A stretch of 64,000 nt of DNA from Shewanella sp. MTB7. Its GTDB lineage: Bacteria > Pseudomonadota > Gammaproteobacteria > Enterobacterales > Shewanellaceae. The notes beneath the pieces are model-generated. The model saw only the letters and a list, made by a program, of their open reading frames with translations, had not been told where the DNA came from and searched no databases. Both the position numbers and the translations under genes were made by a program. Shown piece after piece: positions 16,056 to 29,263 of the stretch. How positions within the stretch are numbered: position 1 is the first letter of the stretch; every line of letters starts with the position of its first letter. Where the stretch lies: NCBI RefSeq assembly GCF_027571385.1, contig NZ_CP085636.1:1550001-1614000 (forward strand), read 5' to 3'.

Positions 16056-16421
16056 GACACCGCTTATATACTCATTACAGAATTAACAAATCGAATAATA
16101 GAGTAACACCATAGACGAGAGTTAGTCAGATGTTTTGTAGCATTTGATGCAAACTGATACACCAACGAGCGTCATGTTTGCAATATGTTTTACCTTGGTT
16201 GCATTAATGTGCTTGCATGGGGCTTGAGTGTGTTTTTATTGCCTTAATATGTAGTCTGAATTTCTGGGTTATTAAATTCAATAAAACCTGCATATAGGAA
16301 AAACCTATATGAGATAAAGAAAAAGACTATTTTTCCTAAAGATAAATTATGCTTATTGTAACTAACAAATATATTTCTAAACTAACTTTAGTGATCCATT
16401 TTCCTAATTAAGGACAACACC
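16056..16421. other. Divergent promoter region between MipA operon and gcdH
   Basis: This 366-base gap must hold promoters for both directions. It is AT-rich, with A-runs around 16300-16340, and gives way to a purine-rich ribosome binding site (AAGGA) before gcdH. I see no gene, repeat or convincing operator in it. Confidence 0.4.
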
Positions 16422-17597
16422 ATGGCGCGAGTGCATTTTGACTGGACAGATCCACTACAGCTAAACGCTTTACTCTCTGATGAAGAGAGAATGATACGTG
16501 ACAGCGTATATGACTATGCTCAGGATAAGTTGATGAGCCGGGTGTTGATGGCTAACCGGAACGAGCATTTTGATCGAGAGATCATGAATGAGCTCGGAGA
16601 GATGGGGCTGCTGGGTGCTACATTGCCTGAAAAATATGGCTGTTCAAATGTCAATTATGTTAGCTACGGCCTCGTCGCTCGTGAGATTGAACGTGTCGAT
16701 AGCGGTTACCGTTCAGCCATGAGTGTGCAATCGTCTTTAGTCATGCACCCGATACATGCCTATGGCACGGAAGAGCAGCGACTTAAGTATCTGCCTAAAT
16801 TAGCCACTGGCGAGTGGATAGGTTGTTTTGGATTAACTGAGCCTGATGTAGGTTCAGATCCTGGAGGGATGAAAACCCGAGCTGAACGCATTGATGGTGG
16901 TTTTAAGCTTAATGGTGCCAAGATGTGGATCACCAACTCTCCCATTGCCGACGTATTTGTGGTGTGGGCAAAGCTTGAAGGAAAGATCCGTGGTTTCATT
17001 CTTGAAAAAGGAATGAAAGGGTTAAGTGCGCCTAAGATTGAAGGGAAATTCTCACTACGAGCGTCGGTTACCGGTGAGATCGTGATGGATAATGTTGAGG
17101 TACCTGAGACTGCGTTAATGCCTAATGCGGAGGGGTTACAGGGTCCATTCGGTTGTCTGAATAAGGCGCGTTATGGCATAGCTTGGGGCGCTTTAGGCGC
17201 TGCTGAGTTTTGTTGGCATGGCGCCCGTCAGTACACGCTCGATAGGATCCAGTTTAACCGCCCATTGGCCGCAAACCAATTGATCCAAAAGAAATTGGCC
17301 GATATGCAGACTGAGATATCCCTAGGTCTATTTGCCTGTTTGCAAGCCGGTCGATTAATGGATCAGGATGCACTTCCTGTCGAAGCTATCTCTTTAATTA
17401 AACGTAACTCTTGTGGTAAAGCGTTAGATATTGCTCGCATGTCTCGTGATATGCATGGTGGTAACGGTATCTCAGATGAGTTTCATATTATTCGCCATGT
17501 GATGAACTTAGAAGCGGTGAACACCTACGAAGGAACCCATGATATTCATGCCCTTATCTTAGGTCGTGCTCAGACAGGGATTCAGGCTTTTTGTTAA
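16422..17597 (+). CDS. gcdH: Glutaryl-CoA dehydrogenase
   Basis: FAD acyl-CoA dehydrogenase that oxidises and decarboxylates glutaryl-CoA to crotonyl-CoA in lysine and tryptophan breakdown. It shows the N-terminal fold, the FAD/substrate motif [17 protein letters not shown], the substrate-carboxylate arginine R97 ([10 protein letters not shown]) that sets glutaryl-CoA dehydrogenases apart, and catalytic base E370 in [17 protein letters not shown]. The length, 391 residues, is standard. ATG 16422 follows AAGGA. A terminator separates it from the E1 gene, so the two are probably separate transcripts. Confidence 0.95.
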
Positions 17598-17608
17598 GCA
17601 ACAATGTT

Positions 17609-17631
17609 AAGGAGCTTTAGGCTCCTTTTTT
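17609..17631 (+). terminator. Rho-independent terminator of gcdH
   Basis: AAGGAGC (17609-17615) pairs with GCTCCTT (17621-17627) around a 5-base loop and runs into a T tract, 12 bases after the gcdH stop. Confidence 0.85.
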
Positions 17632-17696: not shown

Positions 17697-19940
17697 ATGG
17701 AAGATAGGGCGGTAGCGTTAGATAAGAGCTTTATTGAGCGAGTCAATAAGCACGCATTTAGTGATATAGGGCAGGGTTGGGATCATCGTCAATTAGGTTT
17801 ATCAGACAGTGACTTTATTGGCATGTTTGAATCTCAACTTAAGAGTCGACTATTGGATCTTGAGTCGCGAAAGATGCGGGCAAGAAATGAGGGCTTCTAT
17901 ACCATCGGCAGCTCAGGTCACGAGGGAAATGCTGCTTATGGTTTAGCCTTTAAGCCAACGGACATGGCATTCCTGCATTATCGTAGCGGTGCTTTTATGA
18001 TCGAGCGAAGCCGCCAACTTCCTGGAGAGACCATTCTCTACGATATGCTGTTATCTTTTGCCGCATCCAGTGATGATCCCACCTCAGGTGGTCGACATAA
18101 AGTGCTGGGTAGCAAGCGATTGAGCATTCCTCCGCAAACATCGACCATAGCCTCGCACTTACCTAAAGCAGTAGGTGCTGCATTTAGTATCCCTTTAGCT
18201 CAACGATTATCTCTTGATTCTCCCATGCCGTCAGACAGTGTCGTGCTGTGTAATTTCGGGGATGCTTCTGCAAATCATGCCAGTGCGCAAAGCGCGATAA
18301 ATTCAGCTTGTTGGGCTGCATATCAGCAAGTGCCACTGCCTATCGTGTTTATTTGTGAAGACAACGGTATCGGGATCTCGACACGAACTCCCAAGGGATG
18401 GATCGCAGCAAACTTTAGCCTGCGGGCCTCGCTTAAGTATTTTTATTGTGATGGCAGGGACATTCTCGACTGTTACAAAGTGAGCAAGGCTGCGGCAGAA
18501 TATGCCAGAGTTCATCGCAAGCCAGTATTTTTACACGTGAGAACGGTACGCTTAATGGGGCATGCGGGCAGCGATGCAGAAATCGCGTATATGAGCAAAG
18601 AGCAGATTTTTGACAATGAAGCTCAAGATCCCCTTGTTGTCACTGCACAGCAGTTGATCGACGCTGGTTTGATGAACTCGAAACAGATCTCCGAACTTTA
18701 TCAATCTATGAAGGCTCGCATAGAGGCTATTGCCCAAATGGCAGTGACTCGACCTAAGTTGCAGACAGTTGAGCAAGCCATGGCTTCTATTGTGCCACCG
18801 AAACAGATAGTGAAACGGAGCCTATATTTAAATGCAGAACGTAGATCTGAGTTATTCAAAGCCGACAAGCTGGCATTAAATAAACCACTGCATATGGGGA
18901 AATTGCTCAACTTAACCCTGACAGAGTTGATGGCGCGCTTGGAAAATATTGTGGTCTGTGGCGAAGATGTCGGTAAGAAAGGTGGGGTCTACCATGTTAC
19001 CTCTCGATTGGTAGAGCGTTTCGGACCCAATCGAGTGATCAATACCTTGTTGGATGAAACTTCTATTCTGGGGTTAGGAATAGGCATGGCTCATAACGGC
19101 ATCTTACCCATTCCCGAGATCCAGTTTCTAGCTTATGTACATAACGCTGAAGATCAAATAAGGGGCGAGGCGGCGACCTTACCATTCTTCTCTGACGGAC
19201 AGTTTACCAATCCTATGGTGATCCGCATTGCGGGGCTCGGCTATCAAAAGGGTTTTGGTGGGCATTTTCATAATGACAACTCGTTTGCTGTGTTTCGGGA
19301 TATTCCGGGATTGATTATCGCTTGCCCTTCCAATGGTGCCGATGCCGTAGAGATGCTCAGAGAGAGTGTCAGGCTGGCCCATGAGGAGCAAAGAGTTGTT
19401 ATTTTCCTTGAGCCGATTGCACTATATATGACTAAAGATCTTCATGATGCTGGTGATGGTCTATGGTCGAGTCATTATATTCCCGAGCAGGAGTCCAAAC
19501 TGATTGCGGTGGGAGAAATAACCCAAGATGGACAAGGGGATGAGCTCTGTATTATCAGCTACGCCAACGGTTATTATTTGAGTCGTCAGGCGCAAAAGAT
19601 ACTGATGGAAACGGGATTAAAAGTCAGAGTTATCGATATTCGTTGGCTTGCACCCTTAAATATGACAGCAATTATTGATAAGGCTAAAGAGTGTAAACAT
19701 ATTTTGATTGTCGACGAGTGTCGTAAAACCGGCTCGATAAGTGAGGCTATTATGACAGGTTTTACTGAGGTGTTAGGTAATGCATGTCCGCCTATTGCTA
19801 GACTGACCGCAGATGATTGTTTCATTCCTCTTGCCGATGCTGCAACACTGCCGTTACCAACCAAAGAGAAGATTGTCGCAGCTGTGATGGCCTTGATTGG
19901 CAAGGAGCTTAATCAAGCTTTGTTAAAGGAGGCATTGTAG
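17697..19940 (+). CDS. Fused alpha-beta 2-oxoacid dehydrogenase E1
   Basis: Thiamine-diphosphate enzyme of 747 residues that joins both E1 subunits of a branched-chain/pyruvate-type 2-oxoacid dehydrogenase. Residues of about 1-340 are E1-alpha like, with the ThDP-Mg motif GDASAN (188-193) and EDNGIGIST (221-229). Residues of about 395-740 are E1-beta like, with VCGEDVGKKGGVYHVT, the LLDETSILGLGIGMA stretch and the C-terminal transketolase domain. It would decarboxylate a 2-oxoacid and pass the acyl group to a lipoyl carrier, but no E2, E3 or lipoyl domain is encoded nearby. The next gene starts 4 bases after its stop, so the two are one unit. The substrate is unknown. Confidence 0.85.
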   Translation: MEDRAVALDKSFIERVNKHAFSDIGQGWDHRQLGLSDSDFIGMFESQLKSRLLDLESRKMRARNEGFYTIGSSGHEGNAAYGLAFKPTDMAFLHYRSGAFMIERSRQLPGETILYDMLLSFAASSDDPTSGGRHKVLGSKRLSIPPQTSTIASHLPKAVGAAFSIPLAQRLSLDSPMPSDSVVLCNFGDASANHASAQSAINSACWAAYQQVPLPIVFICEDNGIGISTRTPKGWIAANFSLRASLKYFYCDGRDILDCYKVSKAAAEYARVHRKPVFLHVRTVRLMGHAGSDAEIAYMSKEQIFDNEAQDPLVVTAQQLIDAGLMNSKQISELYQSMKARIEAIAQMAVTRPKLQTVEQAMASIVPPKQIVKRSLYLNAERRSELFKADKLALNKPLHMGKLLNLTLTELMARLENIVVCGEDVGKKGGVYHVTSRLVERFGPNRVINTLLDETSILGLGIGMAHNGILPIPEIQFLAYVHNAEDQIRGEAATLPFFSDGQFTNPMVIRIAGLGYQKGFGGHFHNDNSFAVFRDIPGLIIACPSNGADAVEMLRESVRLAHEEQRVVIFLEPIALYMTKDLHDAGDGLWSSHYIPEQESKLIAVGEITQDGQGDELCIISYANGYYLSRQAQKILMETGLKVRVIDIRWLAPLNMTAIIDKAKECKHILIVDECRKTGSISEAIMTGFTEVLGNACPPIARLTADDCFIPLADAATLPLPTKEKIVAAVMALIGKELNQALLKEAL

Positions 19941-19944
19941 AATA

Positions 19945-21000
19945 ATGACAAGTCCTGATAAGAAAACGAAACAGAGAGTCCTTGTCGTTGCCCCTGGAAG
20001 AGGTTGCTATAACAAGGAGGAGTTAGGGTATCTGCAAACACATCATAGCGGTAAAGCAAGATTTATCGATGATATCGACGCTTATAGAGCAGTGTTGGGG
20101 CAAGCGAGTATTAAACAGCTCGATAGCGCTGATAAGTACTCTTTTAAACTGCACACTGCAGGGGAAAATGCATCGGCATTAATCTATGCCTGTGCCATGG
20201 CGGACTTTATGGATATTGATACCGATAAATATGAAGTGGTTGCTGTAACGGGAAATTCCATGGGTTGGTATATCGCGTTAGCGTGTGCTGGTGCCTTAGA
20301 CTCTGATGCTGCCATTGATGTGATCAATAGCATGGGCTCTATGATGCAAACAGGGTTAATAGGTGGTCAGTTACTTTATCCTGAAATGGACAAAGAGTGG
20401 CGACTGGATAAAGCGAAAACAGCGTTAATAGACATTGCTATCGAGCAGATAAATGCAGAAGAGGGCTGTGAGGTTTATACCTCAATATGGCTCGGTGGTT
20501 ACCGGGTATTCGCTGGCAACGAAGCGGGCCTCAAACGACTAGAAACGATGTTACCAAGCATTGATGAACGTTACCCGATGCGACTCTATAACCATGGGGC
20601 ATTTCATTCTCCAATGCTTAATGATGTGTCGAAACGTGGCTTAGAAACGATTGCTGCTTCTCTGTTTAGCTTGCCTCAAGTGCCACTAATCGATGGTGAA
20701 GGACGGATCTGGACACCACAAAGCACTGACACAGATAAACTTAAGCGTTACACCTTAGGTGCTCAGGTGACTCAACCTTATGATTTCACCAAGGCGATTC
20801 AGGTGGCTGTAAAAGAGTTTGCGCCTGATAAGTTAATTGTGCTTGGGCCGGGAAACACGCTGGGTGGACCAATAGCTCAGGCATTAATTGATATCGGTTG
20901 GTTTGATTGGCAAGGTAAAAATCATTTTACACAGGCTCAAGATGAGTCACCCAAGCTGCTAGCTATGGGAAATGAACTGCAACGTCGACAGGTGACTTAG
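19945..21000 (+). CDS. FabD-like acyltransferase with altered substrate pocket
   Basis: A 351-residue member of the malonyl-CoA:ACP transacylase fold. Ungapped comparison by eye with E. coli FabD places nucleophile S105 in GNSMG (usual GHSLG) and catalytic H221 in NHGAFHSPML, so the Ser-His pair is kept. The arginine that binds the malonyl carboxylate (R117 in E. coli, within MRGKFMQ) is replaced by M130 (SMGSMMQ), and Q250 appears as Asp in TQPYDFTKA. Loss of that arginine argues against malonyl-CoA as substrate. It is coupled to the E1 gene, suggesting transfer of an acyl group made by E1. Function is inference. Confidence 0.75.
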   Translation: MTSPDKKTKQRVLVVAPGRGCYNKEELGYLQTHHSGKARFIDDIDAYRAVLGQASIKQLDSADKYSFKLHTAGENASALIYACAMADFMDIDTDKYEVVAVTGNSMGWYIALACAGALDSDAAIDVINSMGSMMQTGLIGGQLLYPEMDKEWRLDKAKTALIDIAIEQINAEEGCEVYTSIWLGGYRVFAGNEAGLKRLETMLPSIDERYPMRLYNHGAFHSPMLNDVSKRGLETIAASLFSLPQVPLIDGEGRIWTPQSTDTDKLKRYTLGAQVTQPYDFTKAIQVAVKEFAPDKLIVLGPGNTLGGPIAQALIDIGWFDWQGKNHFTQAQDESPKLLAMGNELQRRQVT

Positions 21001-21081: not shown

Positions 21082-22299
21082 TTAGTTGATGACTCTATGA
21101 ACAGCTTCGAGAATTTCTCGTTTAGTTGAAGGCTTGAGAATATAGCCTTTGAGTCCTTGGTCTGCCCAAGTTTTAATTAGCTCCTTATTTTTGTTGCCAG
21201 TTAGCGCAATGATAGGGAGATTTTTCCCTTTTGTGGCAGATTTAATCTGAATGGTCGTGTTGATTCCATCTAAATTCGGCATAAATAAGTCCATTAAAAC
21301 AAGTGAATAATTGTTCTGTTTTATTTTTTTCAGCGCATGCAGGCCATCATCGGCAGCATCAACAGTAAACTTATCTTGTTTTAATATGTTAACGAGCATA
21401 TTCCTGTATAGTTGATTGTCTTCAACCACTAATATTCTTTTAATCTCAGCTTGTTCAATACCATCGCTATGAGAGGGGACTGGTACAGTGCTTGTTGCTA
21501 AAGCCTCCATTACTTTCGTTGGATCTGGTGCTTGAACTTTGTTTTTCATTGACGTTTGTTTTTTTTGTTCTGTTATCCCATCTTGCTTTGTGATTAATTG
21601 ATTTATCATGTTGTCTAGCGTGTTTTTGATATTACACTCTAGCTCAGCAAGTAGAGGTTCAATGTGTTGTTTATTTATTTTATCTAATAATTGTTTTGAG
21701 TTTTGTTTTGTTTCTATTTCATTTTCTTTTATGGCTTCATTAGACTGGTTTAGATTCCTCTTACATCTATCAATTGAGTCCAATAAGGAGCGCTTGCACT
21801 CTCCACCATTATCTATAAGTTGAGCGAGATCGTCTTCAATGTTATCCAGTTGTTCCTCTTGAAGCCCTATATATTGCTCCGTCGTTTGGCTGATAAGTAA
21901 GCCATTATGGACCATCATTTTCAAACGAAATTTTTCATATAAAGGTTGGTATACGAAATAATTGTCGAAGAGCCCTTTTATGCAACAACGAAAGGCCACA
22001 CCAGATTCACGATTCTTACATAACAGAATACTTTGGTGAGGGTAATTCAAGCTCTTATTGGTAATGATTTCGGTATATAACTCGATACTTTTTTGTACTG
22101 TACTGAGGGCTAGTAATATGACAGAAGGCTTAAACTCTCTTATTTTAATGTCTATATCTGTGTTGACAGGAAGGGTTCGATAATCCTCCACTTGTTCGGC
22201 AATAATGCTTGCAGCTCCTAAAATATCGTCTTCATTCTCGAAAATCATAATGACTTTTGGATGACGGCAGGCCAAGCTAGGTTTTGATGGCATTGACAA
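21082..22299 (-). CDS. Response regulator with N-terminal pseudo-receiver (copy A)
   Basis: A 405-residue receiver protein with no DNA-binding or enzymatic output domain. The N-terminal 120 residues look like a receiver fold (KVIMIFENEDD...PSVILLALS) in which the phosphorylated aspartate position is alanine. A long charged, probably coiled-coil linker follows (about 150-250). The C-terminal domain is a complete receiver with phospho-acceptor D337 (LVLMDLFMPNLDG) and the conserved lysine in ILKPS. It is paralogous along its whole length to the protein at 25278-26459. Last gene of the five-gene leftward phosphorelay run, 80 bases after kinase A. Role unknown. Confidence 0.8.
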   Translation of the reverse strand: MSMPSKPSLACRHPKVIMIFENEDDILGAASIIAEQVEDYRTLPVNTDIDIKIREFKPSVILLALSTVQKSIELYTEIITNKSLNYPHQSILLCKNRESGVAFRCCIKGLFDNYFVYQPLYEKFRLKMMVHNGLLISQTTEQYIGLQEEQLDNIEDDLAQLIDNGGECKRSLLDSIDRCKRNLNQSNEAIKENEIETKQNSKQLLDKINKQHIEPLLAELECNIKNTLDNMINQLITKQDGITEQKKQTSMKNKVQAPDPTKVMEALATSTVPVPSHSDGIEQAEIKRILVVEDNQLYRNMLVNILKQDKFTVDAADDGLHALKKIKQNNYSLVLMDLFMPNLDGINTTIQIKSATKGKNLPIIALTGNKNKELIKTWADQGLKGYILKPSTKREILEAVHRVIN

Positions 22300-22379
22300 T
22301 TACTCCCTGTAGTTGCTGTGTGCGAGTTAGTTACACAAATAAACTTCATTATGATTTCTTTTACATTTTTTATTTAACA

Positions 22380-25172
22380 TCAACTTACCTTGTACCATTT
22401 GTCTATCACTTTTTTTAAATCTTTTAATATAATAGGTTTGCTGACAAAATCATTCATCCCCATAGAATAGCAGTGTTCTTCATCACCGTTCATTGCGGCA
22501 CCTGTTATGGCAATAATTGGAACGGGTTTTTTCTTATTTACTTTCTCTAACATCCTGATTTTATTGGTCATACTGTAGCCGTCTAGGTTTGGCATATGGC
22601 AATCGGTTAAAATTAATTTGTAGTCCATGCTTTGCCAATACTTTATTCCTTCAAGTCCATCGTCTGCAAGATCACATTGAAAACCTAATTTATTCAATTG
22701 TTTTACTATTAGCTTTTGATTTAAAAGATTGTCTTCGACAACAAGGATATCTGCAGGTTGAGAGAGAGCTTGATGGCAAATGTCCAAGTTATTGTCTAAG
22801 TCGTTTAATGATATTAAATCTGAATCTAAATCGAGATCTAATGGTTCTTCAACGATACTTTTCACGGAATCGATCAGTTGAAGCTTAGTCATTGGTTTTA
22901 TCGGGAGTATGTGTCCATGGGGTATAAGTCTTCGTGCCTGAGACAACTCAGATCTTGGAATTGTGATTAAGAAATTATTTGCTTGCTTGTATCTCTGGTA
23001 TAGACGTTGAAGTGAGTCTTGAGAGTTAGAAAGTGATCCTGAAAGCAGCATCACGATGTCATAGTTAATAAGGGCTATATCGAGATCCTCGATATTAATG
23101 AAGTCAACATGAGCTCCCTCGACTTTTAGTGGTTCAATGATGAAGTTATAGGCATCTATATTCTGCTTTGGCTTGATGACTGCTATGTTATAACTGTTTA
23201 GTTTTGGTTGAGGTTGATGTTTATCCTCTACTCGTAAAAAAGGGAGTTCAATTGTAAATGTCGAGCCTACATCAGGCTGGCTCTTCAGGCTTATCTCTCC
23301 TCCCATTAGATGAGTTAAATTTCTGCAGATAGCTAGTCCTAATCCTGTACCACCGTACTTCCTCGTGATTGAGTTTTGAGCTTGAGTGAATGGAGCGAAT
23401 AATTTACTTTGATCTGTCTTATTGATTCCGATGCCATTATCCTCAACAATGAGTTTTATGCATATCTCCTCTTTGGTTATTTTAGTTATATCAGAGGTTA
23501 GACAAATCTTACCAGTTTCAAATTCTGAACGGGTAAACTTGATGGCGTTGCTCATTAGGTTATATAAAATTTGTCTTACCTTAACGGTGTCTCCTCTGAC
23601 TAAGTTAGGTATTTGTGGATTTTCTATGATTTGTATATCTATTCGATTTTTCTGGGCATTAGGAAGAAAAATTTGAACTAAGTTGTCGATCATCTCTGTG
23701 ATCGAGAAATCACTATATTCAACCTGCATTTTTCCGGCTTCAATTTTATTTATATCCAGAATATCATTGAGAATACAGATGAGGTTAGTTGCTGAAGTTG
23801 ATGCGGTTTCAATTAGTTCCTTAGATTCATATGATTGCTCTGTGAGGTTAAGTAGATCGAGTGAACCTATGACGGCATTCATCGGGGTACGTAGTTCGTG
23901 ACTCATCATTGAGAGAAATTCGCTCTTGGTCTGGTTAGCTTTTTCGGCTCTTTCCTTTGCCTGTTGAAATTCAATAGTTCGTTGAACGACTCTCATTTCA
24001 AGTTCGTTATTCGCTACTTTTAGTTTTTTCTGGGCTTTGTAAATAGGGGATTGGTCTATACAGATCCCATCAATTCGACAAATTTGATGGTTGTCATCTC
24101 GCCCAACTTTTCCTTTTCCTAATATATATTTAATTTCACCGTTTGGTAAAATTGTACGATATTCTTGATCGAAAAAATCCCCAGTATTGATAGAATGTTT
24201 GATAGCATCATGTACTTGGGGCATATCATCGGGGTGTAACCTTTTGAGCCAAGAACCCAAATTACCAACATCATGGGCCTCCAATGCAAACATTTTGTTA
24301 GCCCGCTCATCCCAGTCCCATATCCACTCCTTTTTTGCACTGTATACACCTCGCCAATTGCCAATTTCACCAGCATCTAGTGCGATATTTCTACTTTCAG
24401 TGGCTTCATGTAAAGCAAATAATGTTTCTTTTTCCTGAGTGCAATCTATCAGAGACCCCGTGATTAATTGTTGATTATTCTTGAGTAGTACGACCTCACC
24501 TCTGAGTTCAAACCATCTGACATTTTTCTTTATCAGGAGCCTGCAATCAAAACAAAATTGTTCACCCGTTTTTAGTTTATTCTCTTGAAATACAGAAAAT
24601 TTATTCTGATCATTGGGGCTTACCATATTGGTAAATTCGTCCCAACTCATTTCAGAAGCTAGATCTATATCAATAAGTGCCTTAAAGCTTGTAGATAAAA
24701 AACTGTGCTGTCTAATAGGATCAAACTCCCAGATCCCGATGTTTGCTACATTGATGGCATGTTCTAGCCGTTCCAGTTTATTGCTTGTTTTATATTTTTT
24801 AGCCGTGCATCTGCTACATTCATTAACGATAAGCCAGTAATCTCCTGCATTTAGTGGACTTTTGTTTATGGCAACGTTGACACAGATATTTCGATCATTA
24901 ACTGTTAAGAAAGAGAAGAAACTCGTTTGAATTTCTAAATGTTGTAGAAATTCATCCTGACTGCTATTTGCTTTATCTTGAAATATTTGAAAACAGCTGC
25001 TAGCCAGCTTTCCTGTAAGACTTGAATTGGATATATCAAATTCATTTTGAAAGTGTGAGTTTATATGAATTATGCATCCTGCTTTATTACAGACCATGAT
25101 AGGAAAAGGGGTAAGATCTATCGATGAGTTCGCGTACATAGTCCTTGTACTCCATAGGGGTAATCCTTTCAT
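22380..25172 (-). CDS. Hybrid sensor histidine kinase (copy A)
   Basis: A 930-residue hybrid kinase without clear transmembrane segments. An N-terminal PAS-like domain (about 20-120) precedes two further PAS/PAC repeats (about 130-390). The dimerisation helix holds H425 ([14 protein letters not shown]), then an HATPase_c domain (GTGLGLAI), a degenerate receiver-like domain, and a C-terminal receiver with D857 ([12 protein letters not shown]). The extra N-terminal PAS is absent from copy B. The start is uncertain: ATG 25172 has no clear ribosome binding site, and an in-frame ATG 11 codons later follows AAGGA closely. It is paralogous to kinase B, but no Hpt gene lies between it and receiver A. 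Confidence 0.85.
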   Translation of the reverse strand: MKGLPLWSTRTMYANSSIDLTPFPIMVCNKAGCIIHINSHFQNEFDISNSSLTGKLASSCFQIFQDKANSSQDEFLQHLEIQTSFFSFLTVNDRNICVNVAINKSPLNAGDYWLIVNECSRCTAKKYKTSNKLERLEHAINVANIGIWEFDPIRQHSFLSTSFKALIDIDLASEMSWDEFTNMVSPNDQNKFSVFQENKLKTGEQFCFDCRLLIKKNVRWFELRGEVVLLKNNQQLITGSLIDCTQEKETLFALHEATESRNIALDAGEIGNWRGVYSAKKEWIWDWDERANKMFALEAHDVGNLGSWLKRLHPDDMPQVHDAIKHSINTGDFFDQEYRTILPNGEIKYILGKGKVGRDDNHQICRIDGICIDQSPIYKAQKKLKVANNELEMRVVQRTIEFQQAKERAEKANQTKSEFLSMMSHELRTPMNAVIGSLDLLNLTEQSYESKELIETASTSATNLICILNDILDINKIEAGKMQVEYSDFSITEMIDNLVQIFLPNAQKNRIDIQIIENPQIPNLVRGDTVKVRQILYNLMSNAIKFTRSEFETGKICLTSDITKITKEEICIKLIVEDNGIGINKTDQSKLFAPFTQAQNSITRKYGGTGLGLAICRNLTHLMGGEISLKSQPDVGSTFTIELPFLRVEDKHQPQPKLNSYNIAVIKPKQNIDAYNFIIEPLKVEGAHVDFINIEDLDIALINYDIVMLLSGSLSNSQDSLQRLYQRYKQANNFLITIPRSELSQARRLIPHGHILPIKPMTKLQLIDSVKSIVEEPLDLDLDSDLISLNDLDNNLDICHQALSQPADILVVEDNLLNQKLIVKQLNKLGFQCDLADDGLEGIKYWQSMDYKLILTDCHMPNLDGYSMTNKIRMLEKVNKKKPVPIIAITGAAMNGDEEHCYSMGMNDFVSKPIILKDLKKVIDKWYKVS

Positions 25173-25277
25173 TAATCATAGCAGCAGTTGTTTTTTTAGG
25201 ATGTCGATTACAGTGATAGGCTTTAACGGTATGCAATCAGTTTGCTAAGTGATAATAAAATATGTTGAAGTATTCGG

Positions 25278-26459
25278 CTAATTAAGTACTTTGTTTACGG
25301 CTTCTAGGATCTCTCTTTTTGTTGATGGTTTAAGGATATAGCCTTTCAAACCTTGCTCAGCCCAAGTTTTGATCAGGTCTTTGTTCTTATTTCCAGTGAG
25401 CGCGATGATGGGGAGTTTCTTACACCCTGTTACAGTTTTTATCTGTTTAGTGGTATTAATACCATCAAGATTTGGCATAAATAGATCCATTAAGACTAAG
25501 TCGTAATGGGTGTTTTTTATTTTTTTTAAGGCATTTAAACCATCACTAGCCTCATCTGTATCGTATTTTTCTTTAACTAGAATGTTGACCAACATGTCCC
25601 TATAGAGTTTATTATCTTCCACGACTAGAATCTTAACTGCTCCTTTAGGAGGATTAGTTAATGAACTCGCTGTATTAGATAAAGCCTCTAGGATGCTTTG
25701 TTGATCTGGCACCGATATTTTGTTCATCTCTTCGACCCGAGCCTCAAGCTCCTTGATCCCAACTTGTTTAACGAGTAGTTGGTTAATCATTTTATCTAAG
25801 CCTGCTTTAATATTACCTTCTAATTCGACGAGTAAAGGTTCGATATGAGTTTTATTAATTTTTTGAATAAGCTGTTCTGAGGCCGAAGGGGTCTGGGTTA
25901 CTTCATTTGCATTTTTAAGATTATTTTTACAGGCTGCAATAGAGTTGAGTAGGTCGTGTTTACATGTACCGGCCTCATCAATAAGTAGCGCGAGGTCCTC
26001 TCCGATACTTTCCAGTTGATTATCTTGAAATCCTATATATTGGCTGGTGGATTGGCTTATCTGTAAACCATTGTGAACGATCATTTTTAGGCGGAATTTT
26101 TCATAAAGTGGTTGGTAAACAAAATAATTATCAAATAGCCCTTTGATGCAGCATCGAAATGCAGCTCCTGACTCGCGGTTTTTACACAGTAAAATACTAT
26201 GATGGGGGTAGTTCAAACTGTGGTCTGTGATTAGTTGGGTGTAGAACTTAATACTTTTTTGAACACAACTTAAGGCTAATAATATGACTGAAGGCCGATA
26301 CTTTTTAATTTTATTGCCTATCTCCTTGTCGACCAATAACGTTCGATAATCTTCTACTTGTTCTGCAATAATGCTTGCAGCACCAAGAATGTCATCTTCG
26401 TTGTCATAGAGCATTATCACCTTGGGATGACGACATGCTGGAGTTGGGTGTGCTGTCAT
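25278..26459 (-). CDS. Response regulator with N-terminal pseudo-receiver (copy B)
   Basis: A 393-residue paralogue of the receiver protein at 21082-22299, with the same three parts: N-terminal pseudo-receiver ([22 protein letters not shown]; Ala in place of the phospho-Asp), coiled-coil linker, and C-terminal receiver with D325 (LVLMDLFMPNLDG) and lysine in ILKPS. The two N-terminal domains are nearly identical over long runs (for example IIAEQVEDYRTL and ILLCKNRESG), which suggests a recent duplication or strong constraint. Its start overlaps the end of the Hpt gene by 56 bases, giving tight coupling; copy A starts at the equivalent residue, supporting this start. Confidence 0.8.
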   Translation of the reverse strand: MTAHPTPACRHPKVIMLYDNEDDILGAASIIAEQVEDYRTLLVDKEIGNKIKKYRPSVILLALSCVQKSIKFYTQLITDHSLNYPHHSILLCKNRESGAAFRCCIKGLFDNYFVYQPLYEKFRLKMIVHNGLQISQSTSQYIGFQDNQLESIGEDLALLIDEAGTCKHDLLNSIAACKNNLKNANEVTQTPSASEQLIQKINKTHIEPLLVELEGNIKAGLDKMINQLLVKQVGIKELEARVEEMNKISVPDQQSILEALSNTASSLTNPPKGAVKILVVEDNKLYRDMLVNILVKEKYDTDEASDGLNALKKIKNTHYDLVLMDLFMPNLDGINTTKQIKTVTGCKKLPIIALTGNKNKDLIKTWAEQGLKGYILKPSTKREILEAVNKVLN

Positions 26460-26796
26460 CAGTAATTACTCCGTGAACTTGTTTTAATGACACTTTCAAT
26501 TTGAGAATTAAATTCTTGCATTGTAATTTATCTTCCGCATTACCAGAATTTTCCAGTGCTTTTAGTAGGTGTGATGTTTGTTCTGCACCTACCGCTGCAG
26601 CTGAGGTTTTTAAAAAGTGAGCTTCCTCTTTAACCCCGATTAACGATCCTTGGTTGTACATGTGAATGATTTTTAGTAGTGACTCTTTTGCCTGCTTTAA
26701 GAAATCAATTTCAAACTGTCTTATCATAACGGGATCATCACCGATTAGATCTAACATGATATTCTTGTTTAATACCTTTAAATTTGATTCAGTCAT
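26404..26796 (-). CDS. Histidine phosphotransfer (Hpt) protein
   Basis: A 130-residue four-helix Hpt protein. The phospho-accepting histidine is H60 in [15 protein letters not shown], which matches the Hpt pattern H-x2-K-S/T. It would carry phosphate from the C-terminal receiver of a hybrid kinase to the separate receiver protein. It overlaps kinase B by 8 bases at its start and receiver B by 56 bases at its end. The last 20 residues are a polar tail ([16 protein letters not shown]). It is the only Hpt gene in the region, so it may serve both kinase/receiver sets. Confidence 0.85.
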
Positions 26797-29263
26797 TCAG
26801 ATACCACTTCTCAATTACTTGTTTTAAATCCTTCAGTAAAATGGGCTTACTAACAAAGTCGTTCATCCCTGTTGATAAGCAGTGCTCTGCATCTCCAGTC
26901 ATCGCGGCTCCAGTAACGGCCACTATAGGCGTCGTTCTCTTGTTATATTGTTTTTCTAGCTGACGAATTTTAGTTGTCATGTCATAGCCGTCAAGATTTG
27001 GCATATGGCAGTCGGTTAAAATAATTTTATAGTCAGTCCTCTCCCAATGTTTTATGCCATCTAAACCATCTTTCGCGATATCGCATTGATATCCTAAGGC
27101 GGATAGTTGTTTTACTATCAACTTTTGATTTAGAGGATTATCTTCGACCACTAACACATCAATTGTGGTAGATAGTTCCTCTATAGGGTTGGATTCACTG
27201 TTGAGGTTATCAACATCGAGATCGTTTAAGTTTAATTCGTCCAAACTTAAATCATCTAAATCTAAGCATAGTTCATTGTCGATTGATTTCTTAACTGAGG
27301 CGATAAGTTGTGACCGAGTCATAGGATGCGTGGGTAATATAGTGCTTTGTGGTAGCTGTTTTCTCAATAAGTGAGCTCGGTTACGTGGTATGCCTATTAA
27401 TATTGAGTGTGCATTACCACATTGTCGATAGAGCTTTTCAATTATAGGGAAATCGGTACTCGTATCAGTGAGTAATATGATGAGGTCATAGGATGTGATA
27501 TCTGTTCCCATGGATTGTACGTCGAGTATCAGGGACTGAGCACCTTCACTGATAAGATGTTGGGTGATGCTCTCTTGGTTCTCTCTATTATCCGTTAAAT
27601 TGATTAAGGCTATGTGTGTTTTATAAAGCACTCCTTGAGGAAATTCCGACTTGTTTTTTGAGCGCCAAAATGGCAGTTCCACGGTGAAGTTAGCCCCCTC
27701 ATTTGGTGTACTGGTTAATGATATTGCCCCTCCCATCAGTTGAGCTAAGTTACCACAGATGGCTAGACCTAATCCTGTACCACCGTACTCTCTTGTAGTG
27801 GAACGTTGGGCCTGAATAAAAGGGGTAAATAGCTTCTGCTGAGTTCCCTTATCTATGCCTATTCCATTATCGGTAATAGATATCGCAAGTTTATAGATAA
27901 TACTATTGTGCTCAACAATATGAACGTCTAAGTGAACTTCTCCCTGTTTTTCCTTTGTTGTTGAGGTAAATTTCAATGCATTGCCTAGTAAATTAAAAAT
28001 AATTTGACGTAGTTTAGTCGCGTCACCTTCTATGGTATTTGGAATATTGGGATCTTCGTTAACATGCAGGTTAATCTGTTTACTCCCGGCGATGGGACTG
28101 TACACTTGAACGACGTTACCTATGATATCTGTGATAGAGAGATCTCTTTGTTCAAGCAGCATCTTTCCGGCTTCAATCTTATTAATATCTAAAATATCAT
28201 TTAAAATAGAGATTAAGTTATTGGCTGACGTCGTGGCGGTTTCGATGAGATCTTGAGATTCAGGTGTTTGCTTAGATAAAGAGAGTAGATCTAGTGAACC
28301 CAATACTGCATTCATTGGTGTTCTGAGTTCATGACTCATCATTGAGAGAAATGCACTCTTGGTTTGATTTGCCTCTTCGGCTCTTTCCTTGGCTTGTTGC
28401 AACTCCTGAGTACGTTCGATAATTCTGGCTTCAGCTTGAGTGTTGGCTTCTTGTAGTTCTGCTTGAATGTTGAAAAAAAGCGTTTGGTTGATACAGACTC
28501 CATCGATACGGCGGATCTTATTGTGACTATCTCGGCCTATTTTTGCTTTGGCATGCACGTAAATCAACTCTCCATTGGGAAGTACGGCGCGATACTGCTC
28601 ATCGTAGAGGTCACCCGTTGTTAACGTGTGACCTAATGCGTTAATTGCCGCTTCTTTATCATCGGGATGAAGTCTTGCTACCCAGGTATCGAGTACACCG
28701 ATCTTTTCTGGTTGCAGTGCAAACATAGCGTTAGCTTGAGTATCCCAACTCCATTCCCATTTGTTTTCTTCATTCAGTTCGGCGTGCCAATTTCCGATAT
28801 TTCCAGCATCCAATGCATTGTTTTTGGCTACTATGGCAAATTTAAGTGCAGAGACGGCCTCTCTTGTTTGAGTACAATCGGTTAGGGAACCGGTGATCGT
28901 GCATTGCTGTTGGTCATTAATGAAAACTTCACTTCTTAATTCAAACCAGAGGTCGGTGTTGTTTACTGTTATTTTAATATCGAAGTTGTGTTGAGAGCCG
29001 ACTTCAAGAGGAGTAGAGCTGAAAACATTAAATTGATCTTGGTGATCTGGATGTGCTCTTTTTATCAAATCGTCAAAAGTAAGAGGGTAATCAATTGATA
29101 GACCAATTAATTCTTTTAGTTTTGGTGAGAAGTAACAAGCTTGGGTTTGAGGTGTATATTCCCAGATGCCAATATTAGCCCCGCTAATAGCATAAGATAA
29201 ACGGAGTAATTTACTCTTTGTTAAGGTCGTTTTAGACGGTTCGTTCTTGTATCGATTAATCAC
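26789..29263 (-). CDS. Hybrid sensor histidine kinase (copy B)
   Basis: An 824-residue soluble-looking hybrid kinase, first gene of the leftward phosphorelay run. Two PAS/PAC repeats (about 20-135 and 140-265) lead into a coiled coil, the dimerisation helix with H311 ([14 protein letters not shown]), HATPase_c ([11 protein letters not shown]), a degenerate receiver-like domain (about 545-640), and a C-terminal receiver with D751 ([13 protein letters not shown]) and lysine in FVSKP. Collinear similarity to kinase A runs from the PAS repeats to the end. Absence of membrane segments points to a cytoplasmic signal such as redox or a small ligand, which is inference. Confidence 0.86.

Follow-up and report, generated by a model that had tools for sequence, protein, structure and literature searches.

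Which acyl group does a FabD-like protein handle when its gene stands directly behind that of a fused 2-oxoacid dehydrogenase E1? The question is raised by a 64,000-nt stretch of Shewanella sp. MTB7 (contig NZ_CP085636.1, positions 1,550,001 to 1,614,000 of the forward strand), here called the window, whose numbering is used unless another record is named. Its plus strand carries a fused alpha-beta E1 of 747 amino acids (17697..19940) and, after a gap of four bases, as the original prediction had stated, a FabD-fold serine acyltransferase or thioesterase of 351 amino acids (19945..21000), referred to below as the transferase. The answer preferred here, with a probability of about 0.5, is that the E1 acts on 2-oxoadipate and that the FabD-like protein assists it by acting on a glutaryl thioester, the pair serving lysine (2-aminoadipate) catabolism. 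That the E1 acts on 2-oxoadipate is, taken by itself, very probable. Gene context gives good support to the E1 step; the role of the transferase is one that we infer.

Gene context of the pair

The gene ahead of the pair (16422..17597, plus strand) encodes a glutaryl-CoA dehydrogenase (GCDH) of 391 amino acids and stops 99 bases short of the E1. It is closely similar to solved glutaryl-CoA dehydrogenases (E = 1e-182 against the human enzyme, 1sir). Its score with the Acd model NF045552 was below the cut-off (205.7 against 470 bits), a model which we take to cover a different subfamily. In a set of 18 loci from named records, GCDH directly precedes the E1 in 15 and the transferase adjoins the E1 in 17 (the E1 of L014 is split in two frames, and L015 ends at a contig edge). 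A divergent LysR gene, of which one cluster member was scanned, precedes GCDH in 12 of these loci; it is missing from the window (16056-16421), from S. hanedai (L003) and from S. nanhaiensis (L004).

Genes for earlier steps of lysine breakdown are found at other loci. The order aminotransferase-GCDH-E1-transferase occurs on two Ruegeria plasmids and at L045. L-piperidine-6-carboxylate (P6C) dehydrogenase lies near the pair in L048, L020, L045 and L052, scoring 817, 815, 789 and 782 bits, respectively, against a cut-off of 730. In L020, from Marinosulfonomonas, the divergent set of genes next to the E1 contains both P6C dehydrogenase and a saccharopine-dehydrogenase-like gene, along with an Lrp-type regulator which scores under the LysM cut-off. 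The annotated neighbours represent the steps before and after the conversion of 2-oxoadipate to glutaryl-CoA, and of these neighbours it is the E1 that fits the gap. Since these neighbours belong to lysine catabolism, the acyl group is likely to be glutaryl, a C5 dicarboxylic group. Labelling in the roseobacter Phaeobacter inhibens, as reported, supports the passage of lysine via 2-aminoadipate toward glutaryl-CoA, 2-oxoadipate itself being undetected (PMC5653290).

The fused E1 and its missing E2

The E1 contains the domain set of the pyruvate and branched-chain dehydrogenases (PDH and BCKDH), with E1_dh at residues 66-355, Transket_pyr at 398-571 and Transketolase_C at 607-716. The active-site histidines of both halves (H289, H523 and H525) are kept in all 46 aligned E1s, and the same motifs appear in alignments with PDB entries. 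With the model for E1 of the 2-oxoglutarate dehydrogenase (OGDH) type the score was only 20.6 bits against a cut-off of 764. The protein thus resembles the alpha2beta2 E1s of BCKDH and PDH in domains and active-site histidines, and differs from them in being a single fused chain, in lying in a cluster without an E2, and in having polar residues, H482, N483 and R489, within one pocket-side stretch. H482 is present in 46/46 aligned E1s, and N483 and R489 in 45/46, the remaining row being unread; the corresponding positions in the E1 beta of Thermus thermophilus, a branched-chain-type enzyme, are F, P and V. Such polar residues would be in keeping with a substrate that bears a distal carboxylate.

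An E2 gene in the same cluster is usual, though not universal, for E1s of the PDH/BCKDH type, and none accompanies the fused E1. The E2 catalytic domains of this genome are three, at 3.02, 3.76 and 5.75 Mb, so that the nearest is about 1.4 Mb from the window at 1.55-1.61 Mb, which bears out the statement in the original prediction that no E2 is close by. The window itself showed no lipoyl domain; E3 was not searched for. Because the cluster holds no E2 gene, the E2 is taken to be borrowed, and at least two E2 genes are present in each of the 29 genomes with the E1 in the survey described below. A third, BCKDH-type E2 was considered as the universal lender and rejected, G115, G135, G388 and G390 holding the transferase with only two E2 genes. 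The 2-oxoadipate dehydrogenase DHTKD1 is comparable in its reaction, as proposed for the window E1, and in having no E2 of its own. It differs in being OGDH-like, the window E1 being a fused chain of the PDH/BCKDH type. The human 2-oxoadipate E1 is reported to recruit E2o, and no gene for a cognate glutaryltransferase had been identified by 2021 according to the same source (PMC8146983). With the E. coli enzymes, 2-oxoadipate is described as glutarylating the lipoyl domain of E2o via E1o; transfer to CoA is given as the slow step with the natural substrate, 2-oxoglutarate (PMC5986005).

Residues of the FabD-like protein

The FabD-like protein has the fold of FabD, the malonyl-CoA:acyl carrier protein (ACP) transacylase, and its Ser-His dyad; structural alignment with 1mla gave 18% identity. 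A protein search scored 7,999 candidates, 5,408 of them under 1e-3, and the best 120 of these 5,408 were taken as family members. Within this best 120 the names given by the sources are mostly ACP S-malonyltransferase or a synonym. The protein stayed below the cut-offs of the curated models, scoring 55.3 bits with the ACP S-malonyltransferase model TIGR00128 (fabD; cut-off 260.9) and 52.5 bits with TIGR03131, for the malonate decarboxylase epsilon subunit MdcH (cut-off 297.9). The genome also has a FabD of its own (L002), with the usual residues.

Gapped alignment with that FabD, with which E. coli FabD agrees, pairs S105, H221, M130 and Q274 with Ser92, His201, Arg117 and Gln250, respectively. 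Conservation was read from an alignment of 154 partly redundant sequences, made up of 120 database proteins, 33 loci and the window protein, in which R19, N104, S105, M130, H221, D250 and Q274 are all invariant (154/154). The nucleophile Ser105 (codon 20257..20259), in the motif G-N-S-M-G-W-Y, and His221 (20605..20607) are therefore retained and the arginine that binds malonate is replaced by Met130 (20332..20334), as originally predicted. The further claim that Gln250 is Asp arose from misalignment, D250 pairing with FabD N230 and the true equivalent being the invariant Q274. The GHSxG motif of FabD reads GNSMG, Asn104 standing in place of His91, and the Glu after the motif is Trp.

A further change, which like that of His91 goes unmentioned in the original prediction, is at the FabD Gln11 position, which is occupied by Arg19 (codon 19999..20001) in the gapped alignment and, at the same offset, in the structural alignment. 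In E. coli FabD the oxyanion hole is described as formed by the backbone amides of Gln11 and Leu93 (PMC10054515). The location of Arg19 at this oxyanion position makes it a candidate carboxylate ligand in place of the lost Arg117. With an invariant arginine where FabD has Gln11, a monocarboxylic pocket does not follow from the loss of Arg117. The original prediction had reasoned in that way and proposed a possible route to starter units, in which a monocarboxylic and perhaps branched acyl group formed by the E1 is loaded on a carrier by the transferase. The loss of Arg117 and the alpha2beta2 (PDH/BCKDH) type of the E1 favour that idea. The lysine and glutaryl-CoA gene context and Arg19 speak against it, as do the presence in the same genome of a separate alpha-plus-beta E1 with its E2 at 3.02 Mb and the lack of polyketide synthase (PKS) or fatty acid synthase genes among the annotated neighbours (a search that did not extend to carrier-protein genes shorter than about 90 codons). 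Starter-unit supply was dropped on gene context and is now very improbable.

The FabD fold could also be put to moving glutaryl from glutaryl-CoA to an ACP, for example toward pimeloyl and biotin or some other product. There is a precedent of a kind in the alphaproteobacterial BioZ route, which is reported to feed lysine-derived glutaryl-CoA into biotin synthesis; BioZ, however, prefers glutaryl-CoA, and its authors state that they knew of no evidence of intracellular glutaryl-ACP (PMC7645780). The annotated neighbours of the pair are catabolic, although small carrier genes were not looked for. Transfer to an ACP seems rather improbable.

Distribution of the pair

The survey took in 398 genomes sampled from the phylum. 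At an E limit of 1e-40 the transferase was found in 16 of them, and at a limit of 1e-150 the E1 in 29, among which are all 16 transferase genomes. In every one of the 16 the two genes are adjacent and on the same strand, with matched segments -4 to 128 bases apart; no genome in the 398 has the transferase without the E1. The coupling put forward in the original prediction, for which genes usually found apart had been named as the refutation, therefore holds. P6C dehydrogenase over its cut-off is present in 18/29 genomes with the E1 against 64/369 without it (Fisher 4e-7), and in 8/16 with the transferase against 74/382 without (p = 0.007). It adjoins the transferase in four of the 16 (G135, G229, G388 and G390, the copy in G390 containing two stops). 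GCDH, at 1e-90, is present in 28/29 E1 genomes and in 15 of 51 genomes drawn in handle order from the remainder; it adjoins the E1 in 8/16 sampled transferase genomes.

A tree of 46 E1s showed five changes in presence or absence of the transferase. Nine rows without it, of families f14 and f24, form one deep clade (L078 and L080-L087), sister to the rest; these genomes are, as a guess only, presumably Xanthomonas-like, and their E1 is possibly a second form of the same enzyme. The other 37 rows include four scattered ones that lack the transferase, and these look like losses. None of the 13 transferase-less E1 genomes has a transferase genome-wide at 1e-40, and the fetched E1 loci contain no clear transferase-like stretch (best E 0.05). 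GCDH adjoins the E1 in three of the four scattered genomes, and in five of the nine deep-clade genomes it lies inside the stretch that was fetched, so the link between E1 and GCDH is independent of the transferase.

Candidates for a substitute at the E1-only loci were examined and rejected. Ten neighbouring open reading frames (ORFs), from ten of the 13 loci and not all downstream of the E1, were scanned and none was E2-like or acyltransferase-like; they comprised an asparagine synthase, DnaB, two ABC proteins, NnrS, a cyclase, a lactonase-like protein and three without a match. An extra E2 in place of the transferase was likewise set aside, as E2 counts do not clearly separate the groups (two to four in the 16 with the transferase and three to five in the 13 without). 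HglS as an exclusive alternative also failed: of 82 genomes with P6C dehydrogenase, 18 have the E1, 29 a full-length HglS, five both and 40 neither (Fisher p = 0.58), where HglS was counted from 45 rows with E under 1e-100 and 33 genomes with only weaker matches were left out.

The pattern of occurrence raises the idea that the FabD-like protein catalyses nothing itself and serves the E1 as a docking or regulatory subunit. It stands beside the E1 in every sampled genome that holds it, and is missing in some lineages. The Ser-His dyad, the oxyanion region and the Gln250 equivalent are nonetheless invariant, and a non-catalytic role is accordingly judged quite improbable.

Other features of the locus

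Between GCDH and the E1 is a terminator-like hairpin followed by a T run (17609..17627, plus strand), with a stem of eight pairs; it is a consensus match only, and eight such sites were found in the region by consensus matching against 4.5 expected. Given this hairpin, the E1 and transferase may be transcribed separately from GCDH, or be attenuated. On the minus strand right after the transferase (21082-29263) are two similar sets, recognised by eye, of hybrid histidine kinase-like proteins with response-regulator-like partners (405/930 and 393/824 amino acids). Sets of this kind also lie downstream of the transferase, sometimes not directly, in L003, L004, L011 and L012, and are absent from most other related loci.

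The order GCDH-E1-transferase is also found on the Shewanella aestuarii plasmid NZ_CP050314.1 (L134, 5106-10038). This plasmid, 231 kb in size, has nitrate reductase genes and a transposase of the ISNCY type close to the trio. From this copy and those on the Ruegeria plasmids, the unit may move between replicons.

At G000:C1:5163715-5166484 a class-III-type aminotransferase match lies beside an aldehyde dehydrogenase match. This is perhaps a pair converting 5-aminovalerate to glutarate, which could also feed glutaryl-CoA metabolism. The best aldehyde dehydrogenase match in the window's genome was rejected as a P6C dehydrogenase, other models scoring higher and no recognisable lysine genes lying around it.

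Proposed function

In the scheme preferred here, the thiamine diphosphate-dependent E1 would decarboxylate 2-oxoadipate and reductively glutarylate the lipoyl arm of an E2 encoded elsewhere. In the FabD-fold protein, Ser105 of the Ser105-His221 dyad would then take over the glutaryl group carried by the dihydrolipoyl arm, and Arg19 would bind its distal carboxylate in the role of the lost Arg117. With CoA as the acceptor, the group would pass from Ser105 to give glutaryl-CoA, which the neighbouring GCDH would turn into crotonyl-CoA. The FabD-like protein would in that case act as a dedicated dihydrolipoamide glutaryltransferase, standing in for the E2 catalytic domain for one acyl group. Two features place transfer of glutaryl from lipoyl to CoA first, the strictness of the gene coupling and the retention of the transferase framework; such transfer is offered tentatively, as one possible course. 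A search of the open-access literature (titles, starts of abstracts and best matches) returned nothing tying a FabD-like protein to 2-oxoadipate or glutaryl, and the portions available of PMC9007349, PMC12543098 and PMC4334477 contain nothing on the 2-oxoadipate step.

With water as the acceptor, the same protein would behave as a glutaryl-lipoyl thioesterase, keeping the borrowed E2 from blockage in the manner of mammalian ABHD11. It would be purely a repair enzyme, freeing the acid from glutaryl-lipoyl (or acyl-lipoyl in general), and the E2 itself would make glutaryl-CoA. Clearing of the lipoyl arm comes second, on the strength of motif changes like those of hydrolases and of the genomes without the transferase; hydrolysis of glutaryl is considered unlikely. 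The FabD-fold acyl hydrolases of trans-AT polyketide synthases (PksD type) typically lack Arg117 and the GHSxG histidine, as does the FabD-like protein (M130 and N104), and their oxyanion residue is reported to be Gln or His (PMC11775670), which here is the invariant Arg19. The protein differs from them also in its coupling to an E1 gene and in having no PKS among its annotated neighbours. Changing the GHSxG histidine of one acyltransferase (AT) to alanine is reported to increase hydrolysis 7.7-fold (PMC4186864). In the hydrolase PksD, however, altering the residue ahead of the serine is said to have little effect, and an Arg-to-Gln change in the AT PedD to permit acylation without hydrolysis (PMC11775670); motif changes alone would therefore not make the FabD-like protein a hydrolase. 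The absence of the transferase from four genomes of its E1 clade is what might be expected of a repair function, whereas the strict coupling to the E1 exceeds the needs of housekeeping repair. ABHD11 is described as a serine hydrolase that removes glutaryl from lipoyl arms in mammals, and its inhibition in human cells as leading to a build-up of glutaryl-lipoyl adducts and impaired OGDH (PMC12643935). The chemistry proposed here is alike in that a serine enzyme takes glutaryl off lipoyl arms. ABHD11 has the alpha/beta-hydrolase fold and is at most distant kin, and the portion of that source at hand mentions no link to an E1 gene.

Several observations weigh against the assignment of the pair to 2-oxoadipate and glutaryl. 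The window's own genome has no P6C dehydrogenase, saccharopine-dehydrogenase C domain or lysine 6-aminotransferase over the cut-offs, these being three families which lead to 2-oxoadipate. The neighbouring aminotransferase passes no curated model (best 438 against 617 bits), and its substrate is thus not assigned. In the window GCDH and the E1 have the terminator-like hairpin between them; in eight of the 16 transferase genomes these two genes are not neighbours, and in one genome (G380) no GCDH was found at the limit used, 1e-90. The co-occurrence counts and the Fisher tests given above ignore phylogeny. Finally, the transferase is missing in 13 of the 29 sampled E1 genomes, and since G007, G336, G083 and G086 lack it yet lie inside the transferase clade (three of these four being draft assemblies), it is not strictly required.

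The scheme suggests that family members called ACP S-malonyltransferase are misannotated, and that an unrecognised E1 gene may account for the 2-oxoadipate step when bacteria break down lysine. A protein family tied to that E1 gene and to GCDH could fill, or protect, the glutaryltransferase step of 2-oxoadipate dehydrogenase. If glutaryl does pass from lipoyl to CoA in this way, the family, spread under the name ACP S-malonyltransferase among marine and other proteobacteria, would offer a bacterial candidate gene for the 'E2a' that 2-oxoadipate dehydrogenase is missing.

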